64,000 nucleotides of DNA from Nocardioides acrostichi (lineage in GTDB: Bacteria > Actinomycetota > Actinomycetes > Propionibacteriales > Nocardioidaceae), in assembly GCF_015319165.1 (NCBI RefSeq), contig NZ_JADIVZ010000001.1, positions 806,001 through 870,000 of the forward strand, in the 5' to 3' direction. The position numbers and the translations under genes are program-made. Shown here piece after piece: positions 1,877-55,593 of the stretch. Under the pieces are notes generated by a model that saw nothing but the letters and a program-made list of their open reading frames with translations, was not told where the DNA came from and made no database searches. Numbering within the stretch: position 1 is the first letter of the stretch; each line of letters begins with the position of its first letter.

Positions 1877-3013
1877 ATGGTCCTCACCGACGAACAGAAG
1901 AGCTTCATCTCCGCAGTCCGCGCCTTCTGCGCGAAGGAGGCCGGAACGATCGAGCAGCGCGACGCGCTGTCGGACGACCGGCGTGCCAAGGACAACGTCG
2001 AGCTGACGAAGAAGCTCGCGGGGATGGGATGGCTGGGCATCTCCCTCCCCGAGGAGTACGGCGGCTCCGGGCGCGGGCTCGTCGACGAGCTGCTCTTTCT
2101 CGAGGAGACCGAGCGGGCCCTGCTGCCGATCCACGGCTACTCGACCGCCATGACGATGGGCGGCTACTACCTGTCGTTCGGCACGGAGGAGCAGAAGCAG
2201 CAGATCCTGCCGGGCATACCTCGGGGCATGTACGGCTCCATCGCCCTCAGCGAGCCCGAGGCCGGCTCCGACCTGGCTGCGTCGGGTTGCAAGGCGGTCC
2301 GCGACGGCGAGCACTACGTCCTCAACGGCCAGAAGACCTGGATCTCGGAGGCGCATCTCGCCGAATACATGCTCGTCCTGGTGCGAACCGACTCCAGCGG
2401 TGACAAGCACCGAGGTCTGTCGATGATCACGGTGCCGACCGACCTCCCGGGCATCGAGGTGCGCCCGATCAACACCATGGGCGCCCACATCGTCAACGAC
2501 GTGTTCTTCTCAGACTGCCGAGTTCCGGCTTCGGGCGTCGTCGGCGGTGAGGGCAACGCCTGGTCGCTCCTCACCCAGGGTCTCGCGGTCGAGCGGCTCT
2601 ACATCGGGGCGATGTCGCTGGGACTCGCCCAGCGCTGCTTCGAAGATGCGATCTCCTACCTCAAGCAGCGTCAGCAGTTCGGCCGACCCATCGGCAGCTT
2701 CCAGGTTCTCAAGCACCGCGCGGCCGACATGGCCACGGAACTGGAAGCGATGCGGGCCCTGCTGTACGACGTCGCCCAGATGATCGACCTTGGCCTGGTT
2801 AAGGACGCCAACCGTCAGGCGTCGATGGTCAAGCTGAAGGCCACGACCCTGGGGCGCGACATCGCCATCGAGTGCATGCACATGATGGGAGGCGCCGGTT
2901 ACACCCGGGACTTCGAGATGGAGTTCCACCTCCGGACGGCTCTGGCGCCGCCGGTCTACGGCGGCAGCAGCGAGATCCAGCGGGGCATCATCAGCAAGTC
3001 GCTCGGGCTGTGA
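1877..3013 (+). CDS. acyl-CoA dehydrogenase
   Basis: A 378-residue flavoprotein that would introduce an alpha,beta double bond into an acyl-CoA. The family segments ALSEPEAGSDLA (FAD/substrate loop, about residues 123-135), WISEAHLAEY and the C-terminal YGGSSEIQRGIIS are present. At the MCAD catalytic position (Tyr-Glu-Gly-Thr) this protein has Tyr-Gly-Gly-Ser, so it lacks that glutamate. It does have Glu239 in AVERLYIG, where isovaleryl-CoA and long-chain dehydrogenases carry their base. That suggests an IVD-like active site and perhaps a branched substrate (inference). The gene ends in GTGA overlap with the acyl-CoA ligase start, so the two are coupled. Confidence 0.92.
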   Translation: MVLTDEQKSFISAVRAFCAKEAGTIEQRDALSDDRRAKDNVELTKKLAGMGWLGISLPEEYGGSGRGLVDELLFLEETERALLPIHGYSTAMTMGGYYLSFGTEEQKQQILPGIPRGMYGSIALSEPEAGSDLAASGCKAVRDGEHYVLNGQKTWISEAHLAEYMLVLVRTDSSGDKHRGLSMITVPTDLPGIEVRPINTMGAHIVNDVFFSDCRVPASGVVGGEGNAWSLLTQGLAVERLYIGAMSLGLAQRCFEDAISYLKQRQQFGRPIGSFQVLKHRAADMATELEAMRALLYDVAQMIDLGLVKDANRQASMVKLKATTLGRDIAIECMHMMGGAGYTRDFEMEFHLRTALAPPVYGGSSEIQRGIISKSLGL

Positions 3014-4689
3014 CCGTGACGGCCTCCGTGTCGGCACCCGTCCGGCCGCACCAGAACCTGGGCTGGCTCGTCGAGCGGCACGCGCGCGGTCCGGGTGGGT
3101 CCCGCGTCGCCTTCGAGTTCGAGGGGGAGCCGCGCACGTTCGCCGCTCTCCACGACCGCAGTCTGCGTCTCGCCGCCGGGCTCGCCGACCGCGGCGTCCG
3201 TCGTGGCGATCGCGTGGGAGTCCTGCTGGGCAACGGGCACGCCTGGGTCGAGGTCCTCTTCGGGCTCGCAGCCCTGGGAGCCGTCACGGTCCCGGTCAAC
3301 GTGCTGCTCAGGTCCAGCGAGGTCGAGCACATCATGGAGGACGCGCAGGTGACTTGCCTCGTCGCCGACGCGTCGGCATCGGGATGCATCGCCAAGATGA
3401 GCGGCCTCCCACCCCTTGTCGTGGCAGTCGGCCCCCTCGAGGTCCCGGCAGGCACTCGCGTCCCCCTTGTCGTGGCAGTCGGCCCCCTCGAGGTCCCGGC
3501 AGGCACTCGCGTCGTGCGCTACGACGACCTCTTCGAGCGGCGCCCTGCGTCCGGTGCGCGGGCGTTCGCGGGAACCGATGCGGGGACCGAGTCCGACCTG
3601 GCGATGCTCTACTACAGCTCCGGGACGACCGGCCGCCCGAAGGCCGCGGCGCACACGCACGAAGGCGTCTTGTGGAACACGTTCGGCCAGGTGGCCGGAC
3701 TCGATCTCACGCCGGACGACGTCAACCTCATCGTCCCGTCGATGTCGTGGGCGGCGGGCTTCCACACCGCAGCGCTGGCGCTGGCCTGGCTGGGGGGTCG
3801 CAACGTCGTCCTGCCGACCGGCAGCAACTCCATCGGACAGATCGCCTCCGTCGTCGAACGCAGCCACGTGACGCACACGTTCTTGGCGCCGACCCTCCTG
3901 CGCCGCCTCCTGGCCTCGGCGAGCGACATCGAGCGACTGCGTAAGTCCTCCCTGCGCTGGATCATCACCGGTTCGGAGCCCGTGCCCCTCTCCGTGGTCG
4001 ACGCCCTGGCGACCGAGCTCCCCGGATGTGCGCTCATCCAGGGCTACGGGCTCTCCGAGTTCCCCAACATCGCCACCTCCCTCCGGGCCGACGAGGCCCG
4101 GACCCACGCGGGGAGCGCGGGTCGGGTGCTGCCGCATACCGAGATGGCGGTACGCACGGACAGCGATGAGATCGTGGCCGCCGGCGAGGGGGAGATCCTG
4201 CTCCGGTCCCCGGCCACCATGCGGGGCTACTTCAACAAGCCGGCGGAGTCCGAGGCCGCGTTCCGCGACGGGTGGCTCAACACAGGTGACCGCGGGTCGG
4301 TCGACGACGAGGGCTACCTGACGCTGACCGGCCGGGTGAAGGACATGATCATCTCCGGTGGCCTCAACGTCTACCCGGCCGAGATCGAGGAGACCCTGCA
4401 CCTTGTGTCGAGGCGTGCCGGATTCGTGCTGAGCGAGGTCACGGTGGTGGGCGTGGCCGACGACACGTGGGGTGAGATCCCGGTCGCGGTCTGTGGTGAG
4501 GATCTGGCGCGCGACAAGGTCGACGCGCTGCTGTCGGGGTGTCGCGAGCACCTGGCCTCCTACAAGGTCCCGAAGGCCCTCCTGCACTACGAGCAGCCCC
4601 TGCCACGCACCGCCACCGGCAAGATCCTCAAGCGGGAGCTGCGCCCGTGGGCCCAGGCGAACATCCGACACCGAGAGGACGCACGATGA
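3010..4689 (+). CDS. AMP-forming acyl-CoA synthetase / ligase
   Basis: About 559 residues from the GTG at 3010, which overlaps the previous TGA; a second GTG at 3016 is also possible. It would activate a carboxylic acid to its CoA thioester through an acyl-adenylate. ANL-family motifs appear in order: YYSSGTTGRPKAAAHTH (P-loop), GYGLSEFP, LNTGDRG, GRVKDMIISGGLNVYPAEIE (hinge), and TATGKILKRELR with the catalytic lysine near the C-terminus. It is odd in carrying an exact 17-residue tandem repeat (PLVVAVGPLEVPAGTRV twice) before the P-loop, from a 51-bp duplication at 3412-3513. The duplication is in frame, so the product may still fold. The stop overlaps the next start (ATGA). Confidence 0.92.
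   Translation: MTVTASVSAPVRPHQNLGWLVERHARGPGGSRVAFEFEGEPRTFAALHDRSLRLAAGLADRGVRRGDRVGVLLGNGHAWVEVLFGLAALGAVTVPVNVLLRSSEVEHIMEDAQVTCLVADASASGCIAKMSGLPPLVVAVGPLEVPAGTRVPLVVAVGPLEVPAGTRVVRYDDLFERRPASGARAFAGTDAGTESDLAMLYYSSGTTGRPKAAAHTHEGVLWNTFGQVAGLDLTPDDVNLIVPSMSWAAGFHTAALALAWLGGRNVVLPTGSNSIGQIASVVERSHVTHTFLAPTLLRRLLASASDIERLRKSSLRWIITGSEPVPLSVVDALATELPGCALIQGYGLSEFPNIATSLRADEARTHAGSAGRVLPHTEMAVRTDSDEIVAAGEGEILLRSPATMRGYFNKPAESEAAFRDGWLNTGDRGSVDDEGYLTLTGRVKDMIISGGLNVYPAEIEETLHLVSRRAGFVLSEVTVVGVADDTWGEIPVAVCGEDLARDKVDALLSGCREHLASYKVPKALLHYEQPLPRTATGKILKRELRPWAQANIRHREDAR
3412..3513 (+). repeat. exact 51-bp tandem duplication inside the acyl-CoA ligase gene
   Basis: Bases 3412-3462 and 3463-3513 are identical and adjacent. 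The period is 51 bp, so the reading frame is kept and 17 residues are repeated. Perfect identity of both copies, including third codon positions, points to a recent event or to an assembly artefact. Confidence 0.95.
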
Positions 4690-5693
4690 TGCAGGCCCTG
4701 GAGCTGATCGCCCTGCGCGGCCCGGATGGCCTGCGCCTCGGCGAACGCCCTGTTCCCAGCCACGAGGGGATGGTGGTGATCGAGACGCACGCAGCCGGGG
4801 TCTGCTTCCCCGACCTCCTGATGAGTCGGGGCAAGTACCAGGTCAGTCCGCAGCTCCCGGCCGTCATGGGCCAGGAGGTCGCAGGCAGGGTTCTCGAAGC
4901 CCCACGGGGCTCGCGCTTCTCACCCGGTGACCGGGTCTGGGCGCTCCTCGAGAGCGGTGGCCACGCGGAGGTGGTGGCAGCGCCGCCGGAGCGTACGTTC
5001 GCGCTCCCTGACGACGTCGACTACGTCGATGGGGCCGCGCTGGGCGTGAACTACCTGACCTCCGCTTTCGCGCTCCACCGGCGAGGCGACCTGAGGGCCG
5101 GGGAGAGCATCCTGGTCCTGGGCGCTGCCGGAGGACTGGGTACCGCCATGGTCGGGATGGCCCGGGCGATGGGAGCGGTGGTGCACGCGGTCGTCTCGAC
5201 GGACGACAAGGTCGCCACGGCTCGCGAGGCGGGCGCCCACCAGGTGTACGTCGGCGACGGATTTCGGGACGCCGTGATGGCCACGACCGGTGGGCGCGGC
5301 GTCGACTGCGTCGCTGACATCGTCGGCGGGGATCTGACGGTCCAGGCCGTCCGCTCGACCAGGCCGGAGGGGCGCGTCCTCGTCCTGGGGTTCACGAACG
5401 GTATCGGGGCCGTCCCCAGCAATCGACTGCTGTTGCGCAACGTGTCGCTCGTCGGGGCCGGCATGGGACCGCTGATGGCTCACGTGCCCGACCTGCTGAC
5501 CGGGCTCTCGGTGACGGTCGTTGAAGCCCTCGCCGCAGGGCTGCGGCCGCTGATCGACTCGACCTTCCCCCTGGCTCGAGGCGCAGAGGCCCTGCGCCGC
5601 ATGGAGGATCGAGAGGCCCGTGGGAAGCTCGTCCTCCAGGTGCGCTCCGATACGCGTGAGACGGCGGAGCCCGCACTGACCGGCGGGCAGTGA
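4686..5693 (+). CDS. NADPH:quinone oxidoreductase-like MDR (zinc-independent alcohol dehydrogenase superfamily)
   Basis: A 335-residue medium-chain dehydrogenase/reductase. The N-terminal GroES-like half contains GVCFPDLLMSRGKYQ and PAVMGQEVAGRV; the Rossmann half has VLGAAGGLGTAMVGMARAMGA for NADPH. The cysteine cluster of structural-zinc alcohol dehydrogenases is not visible, so it belongs with quinone oxidoreductases and enoyl reductases. The ATG at 4686 overlaps the ligase stop. In this operon it probably reduces an unsaturated ketone, quinone or enoyl intermediate; the exact substrate is unknown. Confidence 0.85.
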   Translation: MMQALELIALRGPDGLRLGERPVPSHEGMVVIETHAAGVCFPDLLMSRGKYQVSPQLPAVMGQEVAGRVLEAPRGSRFSPGDRVWALLESGGHAEVVAAPPERTFALPDDVDYVDGAALGVNYLTSAFALHRRGDLRAGESILVLGAAGGLGTAMVGMARAMGAVVHAVVSTDDKVATAREAGAHQVYVGDGFRDAVMATTGGRGVDCVADIVGGDLTVQAVRSTRPEGRVLVLGFTNGIGAVPSNRLLLRNVSLVGAGMGPLMAHVPDLLTGLSVTVVEALAAGLRPLIDSTFPLARGAEALRRMEDREARGKLVLQVRSDTRETAEPALTGGQ

Positions 5694-5818: not shown

Positions 5819-7792
5819 ATGAGTGCTGGTCAAGCCCCTTCACGTCGCGACAACTATCGCCCGTGCCCCCCGGGTGCTCGCCTCGACCACCACACTCGGG
5901 TTCTCGGCGCTTTCGAGGAGGTCGCCGCGCTCGCCGCCGGTGAGGGCGTCTCCCTCGACGAGATCCTCAGACTCGTCGGGCGTCACCTATGCGAACTGTT
6001 GGGTGTCAGCCGGTGCTCGGTGTATCTGCGCATCACCAACGGCCTCTTCCAAGGGCGCGCCGGCTACTGCGCGCGCGAGGGCTGCATCGACAAAAAAGTC
6101 AGTCGCCTCGTGTCGGGAGTCCAGGGCGACCAGTTCACCTCGGAGATCGTCCAGGGTGCGACGCCCGTCTTGGTGCAGAACGCCGCGACGGATCCCCGGA
6201 CCATCCAGAAGACGATGAGGCGCTGGGGGGTGTGCGACATGCTCGGCGTCCCCTTGGTGGTGGGCGAAGAGGTCATCGGCATCATCTACGCCGACTCCCC
6301 GGGCCAGCACCACCGCTACCAGGACGCCGACGTCAGTCTGGCGCAGGCCTTCGCCGGCCTCGCGACCTTGGTCGTCGTCCAGAGCTGGAGACGCGAACAG
6401 GCCGAGGCTCAGCGCGAGAAGCTGGAACGACGCACCGAGGATCTCGGTCTGCTGCTGACCGTGGGTGATCTGGCGACTCGACTGATCTCAGAACGACGCC
6501 CGCTTGCGGACCTGCTGAGGCCGCTGGTCACCATCATTGACAAGCCGGTCGCCGTGCACGATGCCAGCGGAGCGACCGTTGCCTGGGCGGCGCCCCAGCG
6601 CGACTCGCTGAAGGCCGCACCCGGCCTGACGCCCGAGGAGTTCGAGTTGCCTTGGGTGGCTCAAGCACTCAGCGAGTGCCCCGAAGACGCCAGTGTCGTC
6701 CTCAAGGCGCAGCCGCGGCTTCGGTATCGCCGACTGGTCGTTCCGGTGGTCGTCTCGGACGCCGTGAGCGGCTACCTCGAAGTCTGTGAGCTGGGGCGCC
6801 GGCTCACCGCTCGAGACGCCGCCGTGCTGGAACGAGTCGCGCGCACGTACCGGCTCGCCCGCCACGCGGAGCCAGGGGACGGGCAGGCTACCTGCGACAG
6901 CTCCGCGTTCCTGTCGGGCCTGCTGTCGCGGCGCGGCGAGCCAGAGTCCCTGCCTGACCGGGCCGAGGCCGTGGGCATCGACCTGACCCATGCCCACGTT
7001 TTGCTGCACGTGAGCCAGGTCGTTCCCGACGACCCCAATCTCGGTGGCCGTCGGGAGAGCGTCGCCGACGTGATCGGTCGCGCCGGGGGGAGTTGTGTAG
7101 CGCACACGTCCCGGCACGGAGCCGACCTCTTCCTGATCGAGTCCAGCCGACGTGGCGCCGCGGACATCTCGGACGAGGTCGCCGGGGCGGTCGATTCCGC
7201 CCTCCGGGCGGTAGAGGCTCGAGGTGAGCAAGTCGGATTCGTCATCGCCTCTCACCCGCTTCGGTCGTTGCAAGAGGTGCCGTCCGCCGCCAGCCGTCTA
7301 GAGCAGATCGCCGAGATCCTGGAGAAGGTGCCCAGCGCCGTCAACGCATGGGCTCCTCAGATCGTCCACGAGCGCGACTTGCAACTGGTGCGACTCATCG
7401 CCAACCGCGAGGGCCTGCAGGGAGCGGTCCAGGACTCACGAGGCCTGCTGGCCCCGCTCCTGGAGCACGATCGCGTGCACGACTCCCAGCTGGTCACGAC
7501 CCTGCGGGCCTACCTGGCTGCCCAAGGTCGGATCCGCCCTACCGCGCTGGGGCTGGCCGTGCACGAGAACACCGTGCGCTACCGTCTCGGACGGATCCGA
7601 GAGTTGTCGTCCGTCGAGCCGGAGCGGCTCGACTCCCTGCTGGGCGCAGCCGCCGCCTTCCAGATTCTGGATCTGCTGGAGTCGCGCGAGGCCGTGAGCA
7701 GTGCGACCGCGTTGCCGCTCTTAGATGATCCTTGTGCAATCGGCCAACAGCCGCCCATGAGCGACGCGCCGACGGTCACGCGCCGGGCCTAG
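5819..7792 (+). CDS. GAF-domain PucR/CdaR-type transcriptional regulator
   Basis: A 657-residue protein with a sensory GAF domain at about residues 40-190 and a PucR-type C-terminal helix-turn-helix at about 560-622 (PTALGLAVHENTVRYRLGRI). The middle resembles a degenerate second sensor or GGDEF-like CdaR region. Regulators of this layout usually bind a small catabolic molecule and control adjacent genes. It sits between the importer/ligase genes and the thiolase, all on the same strand, and is the obvious local regulator of the catabolic region (inference). The ligand is unknown. Confidence 0.85.
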   Translation: MSAGQAPSRRDNYRPCPPGARLDHHTRVLGAFEEVAALAAGEGVSLDEILRLVGRHLCELLGVSRCSVYLRITNGLFQGRAGYCAREGCIDKKVSRLVSGVQGDQFTSEIVQGATPVLVQNAATDPRTIQKTMRRWGVCDMLGVPLVVGEEVIGIIYADSPGQHHRYQDADVSLAQAFAGLATLVVVQSWRREQAEAQREKLERRTEDLGLLLTVGDLATRLISERRPLADLLRPLVTIIDKPVAVHDASGATVAWAAPQRDSLKAAPGLTPEEFELPWVAQALSECPEDASVVLKAQPRLRYRRLVVPVVVSDAVSGYLEVCELGRRLTARDAAVLERVARTYRLARHAEPGDGQATCDSSAFLSGLLSRRGEPESLPDRAEAVGIDLTHAHVLLHVSQVVPDDPNLGGRRESVADVIGRAGGSCVAHTSRHGADLFLIESSRRGAADISDEVAGAVDSALRAVEARGEQVGFVIASHPLRSLQEVPSAASRLEQIAEILEKVPSAVNAWAPQIVHERDLQLVRLIANREGLQGAVQDSRGLLAPLLEHDRVHDSQLVTTLRAYLAAQGRIRPTALGLAVHENTVRYRLGRIRELSSVEPERLDSLLGAAAAFQILDLLESREAVSSATALPLLDDPCAIGQQPPMSDAPTVTRRA

Positions 7793-7862: not shown

Positions 7863-9032
7863 GTGTCGGTATCTGGACGTGACGCCGTGATCGTGGGTGC
7901 CCTTCGGACTCCCGTGGGGGTAGGCAAGCCTGGCAAAGGTGTGCTGGACCATTGGCATCCGGTCGACTTGTCGGGTGAGCTTCTGGCCGCCCTCGTGGCG
8001 CGTGCCGCCATCGATCCGGCCCTGATAGACGACGTCATCTGGGGTTGTGTCACGCAGGTCGGTGAGCAGAGCTCGAACGTCGGCCGCCTCGCGGCTCTGG
8101 CGGCGGGCTTTCCCGAGTCAGTGGTGGGCACGACGATCGATCGTCAGTGCGGTTCTTCCCAACAGGCTGTGCATTTCGCCGCCGCCGGCGTCGTGGCAGG
8201 TCACTACGACCTGGTCGTCGCCGGAGGCGTTGAGTCGATGTCTCGCGCCCCGATGTTCTCCAACGTGCACGGGGGCGACGGCCCCGTGGGACCGCGGGTC
8301 AACCAACGGTTCGACCTGGTGGGCCAGGGGACGAGCGCCGAGCTGATCGCGTCCTCGTGGGGCATCTCGCGCGGAGGGGCCGACGAGTTGGCGGTCCGCT
8401 CGCACGAGCGTGCTGCGGCGGCCACCGCAGACGGACTCTTCGAGGCCGAGCTGGTGCCCGTCCCGGGCAAGGACGGACAGCAGGTCCAAGCCGACCAGGG
8501 CATCCGTCCCAGCACCTCCCTCGAGACGCTGGCCGCGCTTCGTCCTGCCTTCCGCAGTGACGGCGTCGTGACGGCCGGCAACTCTTCCCAGATCTCCGAC
8601 GGCGCGGCGGCGCTCCTCATCACCACCAGCGACATCGCGGCTGAACTCGGACTCACGCCCCTCGCCCGCATCCACACGGTCGCGATGGCCGGGGTGGACC
8701 CCGTCATGATGCTCACCGGACCGATCCCCGCCACCGCTCGCGTCCTGAGTCGTTCCGGCCTGACGATCGACGACATCGCGGCGTTCGAGGTGAGTGAGGC
8801 CTTCGCCCCGGTGGTCGGGGCGTGGCTGCACGAGACCGGAGCAGACCCGCGACTCACGAACCCCATGGGAGGTGCCATGGCGATCGGGCACCCGCTCGGC
8901 GCCAGCGGCGCCCGCCTCATGACCACCTTGGTGCATCACCTGGCCCGGACCGGTGGACGCTACGGCCTTCAGACGATGTGCGAGGGCGGCGGAATGGCCA
9001 ACGCCACCATCATCGAGAACCTGCAGTTGTGA
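7863..9032 (+). CDS. acetyl-CoA acyltransferase (thiolase)
   Basis: A 389-residue degradative thiolase with all catalytic residues. The nucleophile is Cys96 in DRQCGSSQQA, His343 is in AIGHPLGASG, and Cys373 is in CEGGGMAN; the family segment GGVESMSRAPM is also present. It would release acetyl-CoA or another acyl-CoA from a 3-ketoacyl-CoA at the end of beta-oxidation. The GTG start at 7863 is supported by GGAGG at 7849-7853. It follows the PucR-type regulator and faces a convergent enoyl-CoA hydratase gene. Confidence 0.93.
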   Translation: MSVSGRDAVIVGALRTPVGVGKPGKGVLDHWHPVDLSGELLAALVARAAIDPALIDDVIWGCVTQVGEQSSNVGRLAALAAGFPESVVGTTIDRQCGSSQQAVHFAAAGVVAGHYDLVVAGGVESMSRAPMFSNVHGGDGPVGPRVNQRFDLVGQGTSAELIASSWGISRGGADELAVRSHERAAAATADGLFEAELVPVPGKDGQQVQADQGIRPSTSLETLAALRPAFRSDGVVTAGNSSQISDGAAALLITTSDIAAELGLTPLARIHTVAMAGVDPVMMLTGPIPATARVLSRSGLTIDDIAAFEVSEAFAPVVGAWLHETGADPRLTNPMGGAMAIGHPLGASGARLMTTLVHHLARTGGRYGLQTMCEGGGMANATIIENLQL

Positions 9033-19243: not shown

Positions 19244-19248
19244 GGCCT

Positions 19249-19320
19249 GTGTCTTTCGTGCCCTGCGTCTTTCGTGCCCTGCGTCTTTCGTGCCCTGCGC
19301 CTTTCGTGCCCTGCGCCCCT
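19249..19320. repeat. 16-bp tandem repeats in a convergent gap
   Basis: Four full units (19249, 19265, 19281, 19297) and a half unit of the pattern GCGTCTTTCGTGCCCT, with one substitution each in the first and fourth. They lie between the FabG-like gene and the Excalibur protein gene, where a bidirectional terminator would be expected. Confidence 0.9.
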
Positions 19321-24695: not shown

Positions 24696-24748
24696 GTGGT
24701 GGTGGTCAGGGTGGCCCGTGGTGCGCTGAGCTGCCACGAGTTTCCGGG

Positions 24749-24790
24749 TGACCCGTCACCAGTTTTCAGCTGACCTGCCACGAGTTTCGG
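24749..24790. repeat. 22-bp repeat family A, two degenerate units
   Basis: Unit 1 (24749-24770) begins TGACCCGTCACC and ends AGTTTTCAGC; unit 2 is diverged (TGACCTGCCACGAGTTTCGG). A further degenerate copy may precede at about 24731. The same pattern occurs at 45723 and, inverted, at 53202. Confidence 0.75.
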
Positions 24791-40595: not shown

Positions 40596-41806
40596 GCTCA
40601 CCGGGCGCGGCCGGCACCTGGACGCCGTGGCGCACCGTCGTCGCGTTCGGCGTGGTGTCGCTGGCGGCCGACATGGTCTACGAGGGCATGCGCTCGGTGA
40701 CCGGCCCGTTCCTGGTCTCGCTGGGGGCCAGCGCGCTGGTGGTCGGGTTGGTGACCGGTGCCGGTGAGGGCGTCGCGCTGCTCCTGCGGCTCGCCGTCGG
40801 GCCGGCTGCAGATCGCAGCGGTCGGCACTGGCGCTATGCCACAGCGGGCTACGGACTCACCGCGGTGAGCGTGCCGCTCCTGGCCCTCACCCCCTTCCTG
40901 GGCGCGGCCGGGCTCGCGGTCGCGTGCGCCCTGGTGCTGGCCGAGCGCACCGGCAAGGCGGTGCGCTCGCCGTCGAAGTCGGCGCTGCTGGCCGGCATCG
41001 CGAAGGACGTCGGCCGCGGGCGTGGCTTCGCGGTGCACAAGGCGCTGGACCAGGTGGGCGCCTTCGCCGGACCGCTCCTTGTGGCCGGTGTCGCGCTCGT
41101 GGCCGGGCACCGCTTGTGGGCCGGACTCGCGTTGCTCGCGGTGCCGGGTGCGGTGTCGATGGCCCTGCTGACGAGGTTGCGACGGCGTGCGCCGATCGAG
41201 GGGCGACCGCCCTCTCGCCGAGCGGATCGCTCCCCGACGGCCCGGTTGCCGCGGCGGTTCTGGGTGCTCGCCGCGGGCGCCGCCCTGAGCACGGTGGGCC
41301 TCATGACGTTCGGCGTGCTCTCGGTGGTCGTGGTGCGTGGCGGCGTGCTCTCCGCGGCGGTCGTACCCGTGGCGTACGCCGGGGCGATGGTGGTCGAGGC
41401 GGTGGCGGCGCTCGGCGCCGGGTGGGCCTACGACCGGGTGGGCGCCGCGGTGCTGCTGGGGGTGCCCGTCATCGTGGCCGGGGTGCCGGTGCTGCTGCTC
41501 GGTGCCGCGCTCCCGTTGACGCTCGCCACGGTGGGGGTCGGATTGGCGTCGTGGGGCGCGGCGACCGGGCTGCAGGACTCGGTCGTCAAGGCCTTCGTGG
41601 CCGACGTCGCCCCGAGCGACCGGCTCGGCGCCGCCTACGGCTGGTTCGCGGCCGTCCAGGGCACGGCCGCCTTCGTCGGCGGGGGTGTGGCCGGCGCGCT
41701 GCTCGGTCACCGCGGCGTGCTGGTCGTCGTCCTCGTCACGGCGCAGGTGGCGGCGCTGGTGGTGTTCGCGGTGGCAGTTCTCGACCCCTCGAGGCGCGAT
41801 TCCTGA
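40592..41806 (+). CDS. MFS transporter
   Basis: A 404-residue membrane protein of the major facilitator superfamily with about twelve hydrophobic segments and the loop VGPAADRSGRHWRYATAGYGL. It overlaps the GNAT gene and is probably cotranslated. Its last residues (DPSRRDS) and the stop TGA at 41804 are encoded by 22-bp repeat units, so the 3' end has been remodelled by the repeat array. Substrate unknown. Confidence 0.85.
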   Translation: MSSPGAAGTWTPWRTVVAFGVVSLAADMVYEGMRSVTGPFLVSLGASALVVGLVTGAGEGVALLLRLAVGPAADRSGRHWRYATAGYGLTAVSVPLLALTPFLGAAGLAVACALVLAERTGKAVRSPSKSALLAGIAKDVGRGRGFAVHKALDQVGAFAGPLLVAGVALVAGHRLWAGLALLAVPGAVSMALLTRLRRRAPIEGRPPSRRADRSPTARLPRRFWVLAAGAALSTVGLMTFGVLSVVVVRGGVLSAAVVPVAYAGAMVVEAVAALGAGWAYDRVGAAVLLGVPVIVAGVPVLLLGAALPLTLATVGVGLASWGAATGLQDSVVKAFVADVAPSDRLGAAYGWFAAVQGTAAFVGGGVAGALLGHRGVLVVVLVTAQVAALVVFAVAVLDPSRRDS

Positions 41807-41844
41807 CCCCTCGGGGGACGATGCGCGACCCCTCGCGGATTCAG
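41782..41844. repeat. 22-bp repeat family B, three units
   Basis: Units start at 41782, 41804 and 41826 with YGACCCCTCG, followed by AGG, GGG or CGG. They span the end of the MFS gene and reach the stop codon of the convergent uppP gene, and carry stop codons for both. Confidence 0.85.
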
Positions 41845-44945: not shown

Positions 44946-45769
44946 GCCGCCGCGTCGCGCCGGCGTCGCTGCTTCCGGGATCGCCGGGCACCGTCGTCGC
45001 CGTGCACGCCCACCCCGACGACGAGGCGCTGTGGACCGGTGGCACCCTGGCCGGCCTGGCCGCCGCGGGGCACCGGGTCGTGCTGGTGATGGCCACCGAC
45101 GGCGCGCTCGGTCTCGCCGACGACGGGCTGCGTGCTGATCTCGGTCGTCGCCGCTTGGCCGAGCTGCAACGCTCGGCGACCGTCCTGGGGGTCGACCGGG
45201 TGCACCGGCTCGGTTACGCCGACAGCGGGTCCGGCACACCGTGCGACGGGGGATTCGCCACCGAGCCCACCGATCAGGTCGGCGCGAGGCTGGCCGCCCT
45301 GCTGGCCCGGGAGGACGCCGACGTGGTGCTCTCCTACGACGCGGCGGGCGGCTACGGACACCCCGACCACGTGGCGGTCCATCGGGCGGTGCGGGCGGCC
45401 CTGAGTCTCCTCGATTCGCCGCCGCGGCTGCTCGAGGCCACGGTCGACCGGTCGCTGGTGCTGCCGGTCTCGCGCGTGCTGCGCTCGGCGGGGCGGCTCC
45501 TGTCCGTGCCCGAGATGCCCGACCTCAGCCACTGCTTCACCCCGCGCGGCCAGATCACCGCACGGGTCGACGTCCGGCCGCACCTCGGGGCCAAGATCGC
45601 AGCGATCGAGGCGCACGCCTCTCAGGCCACCGGCGGACCGCGCACGGCGTCCCTGCTCACCTCGCTGCCGTGCCCCCTGCGCTCCCTCGTGCTGGGTACC
45701 GAGTGGTTCCACGAGCCCGTGCTGACCCGTCACGAAGTTTCAGCTGACCCGTCACGAAGTTTCAGTTGA
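44942..45769 (+). CDS. PIG-L family deacetylase (LmbE-like)
   Basis: A 275-residue zinc-dependent N-deacetylase. Metal ligands are in HAHPDDEALWTGG near residue 22 and in GGYGHPDHVAVHRAV. Members remove acetyl from GlcNAc on lipids or inositol. The ATG overlaps the glycosyltransferase stop. The last residues and the stop TGA (45767) come from 22-bp repeat units, so the natural C-terminus probably ended earlier. Confidence 0.88.
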   Translation: MSRRVAPASLLPGSPGTVVAVHAHPDDEALWTGGTLAGLAAAGHRVVLVMATDGALGLADDGLRADLGRRRLAELQRSATVLGVDRVHRLGYADSGSGTPCDGGFATEPTDQVGARLAALLAREDADVVLSYDAAGGYGHPDHVAVHRAVRAALSLLDSPPRLLEATVDRSLVLPVSRVLRSAGRLLSVPEMPDLSHCFTPRGQITARVDVRPHLGAKIAAIEAHASQATGGPRTASLLTSLPCPLRSLVLGTEWFHEPVLTRHEVSADPSRSFS

Positions 45770-45830
45770 CCCGTCACGAGTGGCGCAGGCACTGACCCCT
45801 CGAGGCGCGATGTGCGACCCCTCGCGGTCT
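45723..45830. repeat. 22-bp repeat array, families A then B
   Basis: Family A units start at 45723, 45745 and 45767 (TGACCCGTCACGA and a partly different third end). Family B units start at 45793 and 45815 (YGACCCCTCG). The array lies between the PIG-L deacetylase and the convergent aldehyde dehydrogenase, and supplies the deacetylase stop. Confidence 0.85.
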
Positions 45831-48103: not shown

Positions 48104-48107
48104 CCAT

Positions 48108-48195
48108 CGACCCTCGAGCGACGATGTGCGACCCCTCGCGGGACGATGTGCGACCCCTCGCGGGACGATGTCCGACCCCTCGCGGGTGACGGGTG
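48108..48195. repeat. 22-bp repeat family B, four units
   Basis: Units start at 48108 (one base short), 48129, 48151 and 48173 with CGACCCCTCG; the middle ones continue CGGGACGATGT. The last ends GGGTGACGGGTG, a piece seen inverted in family A. The array fills the convergent gap between a membrane protein and a hydrolase. Confidence 0.9.
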
Positions 48196-49105: not shown

Positions 49106-49148
49106 CTGCCCATGGTGCGCCCCGTTCCCTGAACCCGGTGACCGCGAT

Positions 49149-49215
49149 CGACCCCTCGAGGGACAATTCGCGACCCCTCGAGGGACGATTCGCGACCCCT
49201 CGCGGGTGATGGGTG
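49149..49215. repeat. 22-bp repeat family B, three units
   Basis: Units start at 49149, 49171 and 49193 with CGACCCCTCG; the first two continue AGGG and end ATTCG, the third ends GGGTGATGGGTG as in the array at 48173. This array lies in a divergent gap, unlike most of the others. Confidence 0.88.
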
Positions 49216-53181: not shown

Positions 53182-53201
53182 CACCGTCGTGGCATGTCGA
53201 C

Positions 53202-53333
53202 TGAAAACTAGTGACGGGTCACGTGAAAACTAGCGACGGGTCACGTGAAAACTAGCGACGGGTCACGTGAAAACTGGCGACGGGTCACGTGAAAACTGGC
53301 GACGGGTCACGTGAAAACTGGCGACGGGTCAGC
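53202..53333. repeat. 22-bp repeat family A, six tandem units
   Basis: Units start at 53202, 53224, 53246, 53268, 53290 and 53312. Each begins TGAAAACT, continues AG or GG, then YGACGGGTCA, mostly followed by CG. This is family A in the opposite orientation to 24749 and 45723. The overlap TCACGTGA between units is a perfect palindrome. The last unit carries the stop codon of the CBS gene. Confidence 0.95.
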
Positions 53334-53745
53334 GGGAGGCCGCGCGTTCGTCGCGTCGTGATCTGATGCCGGCATCCGAGCAGTAGCCGTGGCCCGACCG
53401 CTTGCGGCACACCAGGCCGAGCAGGCGGCCGGTGTCGTCGACGACGGCCAGCCGGCGACTGGCACCGCCGACGAAGGCGGCGGCCAGGTCGGGTTCGGGC
53501 AGGTCGGCCCGGACGGTGCGACCCGCGAGGTCGGCGGCCTCGCTCGCGGGCGCGGCGTCGTCGAGCCCGTGGAGGTCGTCGCGCTGGACGGCGGCCACGA
53601 GGTGGCCGGCATCGTCGACGAGCAACGCGAGATGCACGTGCTCGCCGGCGAGGAAGGTCCGGACGTCGCCGACGGTCGCGTCGGCGGGGTGTGTGGTGGG
53701 GGAGCGGACGGCCACGTCGAGGGCCGTCGTGCCGTGCGTGGTCAC
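53329..53745 (-). CDS. CBS-domain protein
   Basis: A 138-residue protein from GTG 53745, which overlaps the stop of the TetR gene. It contains two CBS motifs (DVAVRSPTTHPADATVGDVRTFLAG and RLAVVDDTGRLLGLVCRKR). CBS pairs bind adenine nucleotides and report energy state. The C-terminus has a cysteine-histidine tail (CRKRSGHGYCSDAG) that might bind metal. Its stop codon lies in the last unit of the family A array. It is cotranscribed with the TetR regulator. Confidence 0.75.
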   Translation of the reverse strand: MTTHGTTALDVAVRSPTTHPADATVGDVRTFLAGEHVHLALLVDDAGHLVAAVQRDDLHGLDDAAPASEAADLAGRTVRADLPEPDLAAAFVGGASRRLAVVDDTGRLLGLVCRKRSGHGYCSDAGIRSRRDERAASR

Positions 53746-54468: not shown

Positions 54469-55593
54469 GTGAAACCGACCCTACCGATGAACCCCACCGG
54501 CTGGTTCCAGGTGGCGTGGTCCGACCAGGTCGACGTGGGCCAGGTCGTGCGAATGCGCTACTTCGACCGCGACCTGGTCGCCTGGCGCGCCGAGTCCGGC
54601 AAGGTCACCGTGATGGACGCCTACTGCGAGCACCTCGGTGCGCATCTCGGATACGGCGGCAAGGTCGTCGGCGAGAACATCCAGTGCCCCTTCCACGGCT
54701 GGCAGTGGAACGACCGCGGCCGCAACGTCTGCATCCCCTACGAGGACCGCCCCAACCTCGGCCGCCGCATCGACACGCTGCCCACCGAGGAGGTCAACGA
54801 GGCGATCTTCGTGTGGCACGACGTCGACCGCGGCCAACCGACCTTCGACGTCCCCGACATGTGGGCCGACTTCGAGGAGCACCCGCTCGGCGGCGGTACC
54901 ACGCGCGAGGCCTACTACCCGCTGAACGAGACGTCGAAGCTGCACCACGCGGCTCTGGAGATGCACCCGCAGTACGTGCTCGAGAACGGCGTCGACTTCG
55001 CCCACTTCAAGTACGTGCACGAGACCCCCATCGTCCCGGAGTTCACTCGCCAGGACTTCGACGGCGCCGTCTCCTACGTCGACTTCACCATCACCTTCGA
55101 CGCCCGTGACGAGGGCGGCACCATCGAGGACATCAACTCCGGCGTCCACGCCATCAACGGCGGCCTGGGGGTGGCCATCACTCGCAGTTGGGGCATGATC
55201 GACAACCGCACCATGACGGCCATCACGCCGGTCGACGACTCCACCAGCGCGGTCTTCTTCACCGTGTGGATCGGGCGCAAGCCCGGTGACAACCGCGACC
55301 GGTCCGACGGCGCCGACCGCCACGCCCAGGGTGTGATCGAGCAGTTCCAGAACGATGTCGACATCTGGAGCCACCAGAAGTACGCCAGTCCGGCGGCCCT
55401 GGCACGAGGCGAGTACGAGGGTTTCACCGCTCTGCGCGCGTGGGCCGAGCAGTTCTATCCCGGCGACACCCCGGCGACACCCCGGCGACACCCCGGTGAC
55501 ATCTCAGTGACGCCGCCCGACACCTCCCTCGCCGACCGGCCTTCCGGCTCTCGCGCGGCACCCCGTCCAGGATCACCAAGGAGCCCCGCATGA
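54469..55593 (+). CDS. Rieske non-heme iron oxygenase, KshA-like
   Basis: A 374-residue terminal oxygenase. The Rieske cluster ligands are in CEHLGAHLG and CPFHGWQWND; the mononuclear iron site is in NGVDFAHFKYVHETP. This layout matches 3-ketosteroid 9-alpha-hydroxylase and related enzymes, but the substrate is not proven. GTG 54469 is preceded by AAGGAG ten bases upstream. The C-terminus carries a Pro/Ser/Arg-rich tail encoded partly by 11-bp tandem repeats, likely not part of the catalytic fold. It overlaps the next gene by four bases. Confidence 0.85.
   Translation: MKPTLPMNPTGWFQVAWSDQVDVGQVVRMRYFDRDLVAWRAESGKVTVMDAYCEHLGAHLGYGGKVVGENIQCPFHGWQWNDRGRNVCIPYEDRPNLGRRIDTLPTEEVNEAIFVWHDVDRGQPTFDVPDMWADFEEHPLGGGTTREAYYPLNETSKLHHAALEMHPQYVLENGVDFAHFKYVHETPIVPEFTRQDFDGAVSYVDFTITFDARDEGGTIEDINSGVHAINGGLGVAITRSWGMIDNRTMTAITPVDDSTSAVFFTVWIGRKPGDNRDRSDGADRHAQGVIEQFQNDVDIWSHQKYASPAALARGEYEGFTALRAWAEQFYPGDTPATPRRHPGDISVTPPDTSLADRPSGSRAAPRPGSPRSPA
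55459..55502. repeat. four 11-bp tandem repeats at the 3' end of the Rieske gene
   Basis: Units CCCGGCGACAC at 55459, 55470 and 55481, and CCCGGTGACAT at 55492. An 11-bp period shifts the reading frame with each unit, so copy number changes would alter the tail of the protein. Confidence 0.92.

Follow-up and report, generated by a model that had tools for sequence, protein, structure and literature searches.

A probable lineage-private, in-frame 51-base tandem duplication in an acyl-CoA ligase gene

An acyl-CoA ligase gene in the 64-kb stretch of Nocardioides acrostichi DNA analyzed here (the window) carries an exact 51-base tandem duplication that most likely is private to its lineage, inserted in frame into an otherwise ordinary gene, with the origin and tolerance proposed below; we put the probability of this reading at about 0.8. 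The main features are listed in Table 1.

The repeat and its host gene

The two copies adjoin head-to-tail and are 100% identical, and Tandem Repeats Finder reports period 51, 2.0 copies, 100% matches, and 0 indels. The start of the repeat coincides with a codon boundary of the ligase frame (3013-4686), which stays open through both copies, and the coordinates and full identity given in the original prediction are thus borne out. Matches at a spacing of 51 continue for exactly 51 bases, corresponding to two full copies, with no partial third copy in that run. Chance does not explain the repeat; in 64 kb of bases drawn independently at the window's composition, some 9e-23 exact tandem units of 51 to 600 bases are expected. 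Among exact tandem arrays with units of 30 to 600 bases, this one (3412-3513) is the only one in the window, and the 102-base repeat matches a single place in the genome.

Judged from its domains, the repeat-bearing protein is a member of the AMP-binding (ANL) acyl-CoA ligase family. Both Pfam domains score above their cut-offs (AMP-binding, PF00501, E 1.4e-73 and 248.4 bits versus 29.9; AMP-binding_C, PF13193, E 5.8e-8 and 34 bits versus 24.5), in keeping with the label first given to the gene, and NCBIfam, in which none of the 25 best models (of 107 matched) attains its cut-off for the ligase, does not fix the substrate. The GTG start codon is our choice, and the frame extends open further upstream. 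The translation retains the stretches YYSSGTTGRPK, GYGLSE, TGDRG, GRVKDMIISGG, and TGKILKREL, presumably the usual adenylation motifs, the first being what we take to be the phosphate-binding loop (P-loop) of the adenylation domain. The SSGTTG loop begins at residue 202, 34 residues past the repeat, and the 17 added residues are thus in frame and upstream of the ATP-binding loop, as had been claimed. The best sequence match among solved structures is FadD13 of M. tuberculosis (PDB 3r44, E 2.8e-70); the window enzyme shares both domains, the P-loop, and the other adenylation motifs with FadD13 and the ANL acyl-CoA ligases, but has 17 extra residues before the P-loop.

Table 1. The repeat, its host gene, and the neighboring genes, in window coordinates
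Feature	Position	Strand	Details
Repeat copy 1	3412..3462	+	51 bases, residues 134-150, encodes PLVVAVGPLEVPAGTRV
Repeat copy 2	3463..3513	+	Residues 151-167, same as copy 1, also PLVVAVGPLEVPAGTRV
Acyl-CoA ligase family gene	3013..4689	+	558 aa; open frame, PF00501 and PF13193 above cut-offs
Phosphate-binding loop YYSSGTTGRPK (presumed)	3610..3642	+	From translation; aligned across relatives
ABC ATPase with branched-chain amino acid transporter C-terminal domain	from 15	ligase strand	
Second ABC ATPase	from about 1085	ligase strand	
Acyl-CoA dehydrogenase	1877-3013	ligase strand	
Zinc-binding dehydrogenase	about 4686-5693	ligase strand	
GAF plus PucR-type regulator	5819-7792	ligase strand	
Thiolase	7863-9032	ligase strand	

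Copy number in relatives and the possibility of an assembly artefact

A single unit is present in all 17 relatives aligned across the repeat (L002, L007-L020, L042, and L043), and the two copies are thus the derived state. These relatives are 40 to 48% identical to the window protein by blastp, and three distant ones (L003, L004, and L005; 23 to 26% identical) were left out of the count. The PVN-to-SGTTG spacing is 83 to 89 residues in the 17 relatives and 109 in the window protein, or 92 once one unit is subtracted. Alignment of orthologues, suggested with the original prediction as a guide to the normal copy number, therefore gives one copy as the usual state, with a shared two-copy state not seen among the 17. 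We note that L019 and L020, and also L007 and L016, are closely alike, and the independent witnesses therefore number fewer than 17. The frame of L002, a ligase homologue from Nocardia brevicatena, is interrupted yet spans the repeat stretch; there is a stop codon within its matched stretch (about 4001-4935), which may reflect a disrupted gene or an error in sequencing.

The closest relative is ~48% identical over the full ligase protein (blastp), and the duplication could thus have arisen anywhere along the long branch leading to this species; genome searching gives at most 55% identity, for alignments that cover part of the protein. Ligase searches matched 10/147 genomes in the genus at 1e-80, 10/294 in the family at 1e-100, and, at 1e-120, 5/394 in the class, 7/195 in the relatives group, and 2/396 in the phylum; these counts include the genome itself, come from overlapping groups with differing E limits, and are lower bounds because 3 to 9 first-look candidates were scored per genome. 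Literature searches found nothing on this gene or repeat among the papers listed.

The single copy in relatives and the exactness of the copies would also fit an artefact, in which the organism has one copy and a 51-base contig or k-mer-path overlap was written twice on joining, and the assembly is in draft form, with 32 contigs. PMC12817950, in the available text, compares a pair of assemblies made from a single M. tuberculosis strain and attributes about half of their 28 structural differences to probable mistakes in the earlier assembly. However, the ligase locus sits within a 1.04-Mb contig, and no further exact period-51 array turned up in the rest of the window or among the 13 exact array rows with units of 30 to 600 bases in 800 kb of contig 1 (864 kb of the 4.33-Mb genome scanned in all). 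With no such array recurring, a systematic contig-stitching error is unlikely, leaving an error at this single locus, and we regard an artefact of either kind as rather improbable.

In this genome, tandem duplication is not in itself remarkable, since the 800 kb of contig 1 hold near-exact arrays (≥90% over one period) with units such as 69, 90, 108, and 139 bases. Exact arrays there with units of ≥44 bases are built up from repeated 22- or 16-base units, some of them longer than the ligase unit (e.g., 66 bases, or 3 x 22), and the 51-base unit is the longest non-composite unit among the exact arrays sampled. In a relative, G103, 400 kb contain two exact arrays, one of 30-base and one of 32-base units.

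Age, origin, and consequences of the duplication

The copies differ at 0/51 positions, giving a 95% upper limit of 5.7% on their divergence, and the duplication is likely recent, its age bounded by copy identity. The earlier description of the event as recent agrees with the zero differences, but the limit leaves the age loose, and identity could alternatively have been preserved by conversion between the adjacent copies.

Copy 1 is preceded by A, whereas the unit ends in C, and copy 2 is followed by G, whereas the unit begins with C, such that the inferred ancestral breakpoints lack shared homology. Slippage between short direct repeats normally leaves some junction homology. It is plausible that the duplication arose without homology, either through a staggered break that was filled in and then joined by Ku/LigD, or through a template switch at the replication fork; both routes fit, and the sequence does not tell one from the other. 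The genome encodes Ku (matched in 1/14 control genomes), has three matches to the LigD-type primase-polymerase domain (LigD_Prim-Pol), one of them about 1 kb from Ku (2/14 control genomes), and encodes NucS (7/14 control genomes); it has no match to the MutS_V domain, which is matched in 11/14 control genomes. This predicted repair-gene set would suit end joining or a template switch. The repeat offers a clean case of a short duplication lacking breakpoint homology, caught before divergence, with both Ku and LigD encoded in the genome, and the adjacent copies might later be lost through slippage.

The stretch before the P-loop in which the repeat lies varies among relatives. An AlphaFold2 model (4-row alignment) has a mean pLDDT of 53.2 and a pTM of 0.54, with pLDDT values of ~35 to 36 over residues 131-160, 70 over residues 161-170, and <50 across residues 121-159, and is too weak in this region to position the extra residues. 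Because the reading frame is preserved and the adenylation motifs downstream remain in place, a tolerated, near-neutral insertion is the simplest reading. The repeat is probably a private, near-neutral duplication, an ordinary kind of small mutation, and the two copies would persist as 17 extra residues that are tolerated or cost little in this variable stretch; the analysis gave no sign of a special function.

Copy-number variation, raised in the original prediction, is possible but unsupported here, the repeat being known from one assembly of the species. As 51 bases are 17 codons inside the coding sequence and contain no stop, a copy change keeps the frame and is no on/off switch, unlike in phase-variable (contingency) repeats, whose copy changes switch frame or promoter. 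The repeat is comparable to the 57-base tandem repeat in the promoter of M. tuberculosis dop, which varies between strains and within cultures according to the available text of PMC12817950, in that both have units of similar length, arranged head to tail, in an actinobacterium; however, the dop repeat sits in a promoter and varies, whereas the ligase repeat is intragenic with no variation known. The tandem duplications of KPC beta-lactamase, as described in the accessible part of PMC12593533, are likewise small head-to-tail repeats in coding sequence, in contrast to which the ligase repeat has no known phenotype and is known from one assembly.

It is very improbable that the duplication is a selected module altering ligase activity or substrate range, perhaps reversibly by copy gain or loss, since the module would lack a selection signal, the AlphaFold2 model is weak over the repeat, the stretch is variable among relatives, and a 51-base step preserves the frame, even though the insertion is in the N-terminal domain ahead of the P-loop of an enzyme that otherwise looks intact, adjacent exact repeats are open to contraction, and promoter tandem repeats of M. 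tuberculosis change copy number within cultures (PMC12817950, available text). The chance is equally slim that a copy-number-variable module of this kind operates by single-step gain and loss in a bacterium without detectable MutS. The preferred, near-neutral duplication changes little by itself, and would matter if its copy number varied and altered the enzyme.

Neighboring genes and other tandem arrays

The gene content of the ligase neighborhood suggests a cluster for the uptake and degradation of carboxylic acids, with all of the listed genes on the ligase strand. A ligase homologue on a Rhodococcus erythropolis plasmid, 47.8% identical, likewise has acyl-CoA dehydrogenases and a zinc-binding dehydrogenase nearby.

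Tandem arrays with a 22-base period, about two DNA turns, are present in the window at 45714-45784, 48107-48192, 49144-49210, and 53193-53340, with weaker ones at 24725-24788 and 41782-41835. Period 22 is over-represented in positions 1-800000 of contig 1 (loci L022-L041 and L044-L063), with 33 rows (one with an 11-base unit) compared to 0 to 12 for each other period from 15 to 30. These arrays include a TGAAAACTNGNGNCNGGTCA-like class (21 rows), a CGAATCGTCCCTCGAGGGGTCG-like class (9 rows), and 2 unclassed look-alikes. The two-unit TGAAAACTNGNGNCNGGTCA-class pattern has 65 occurrences in the genome versus 0 in a reversed control, and with no mismatch allowed it is found in 0/117 other genomes of the genus. 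In 400 kb of G103 (L064-L083), period 22 again leads among periods of 15 to 30, with 12 rows, 11 of which by eye have another sequence, like CGCAACAACTGCAGGTTCGACG. It seems from these two genomes that the 22-base period is kept while the array sequence differs between species; a literature search on arrays of this period found nothing. The window additionally contains a 16-base-unit array at 19246-19315 (4.4 copies, 96% matches) and an 11-base-unit array at 55459-55501 (3.9 copies, 96% matches).
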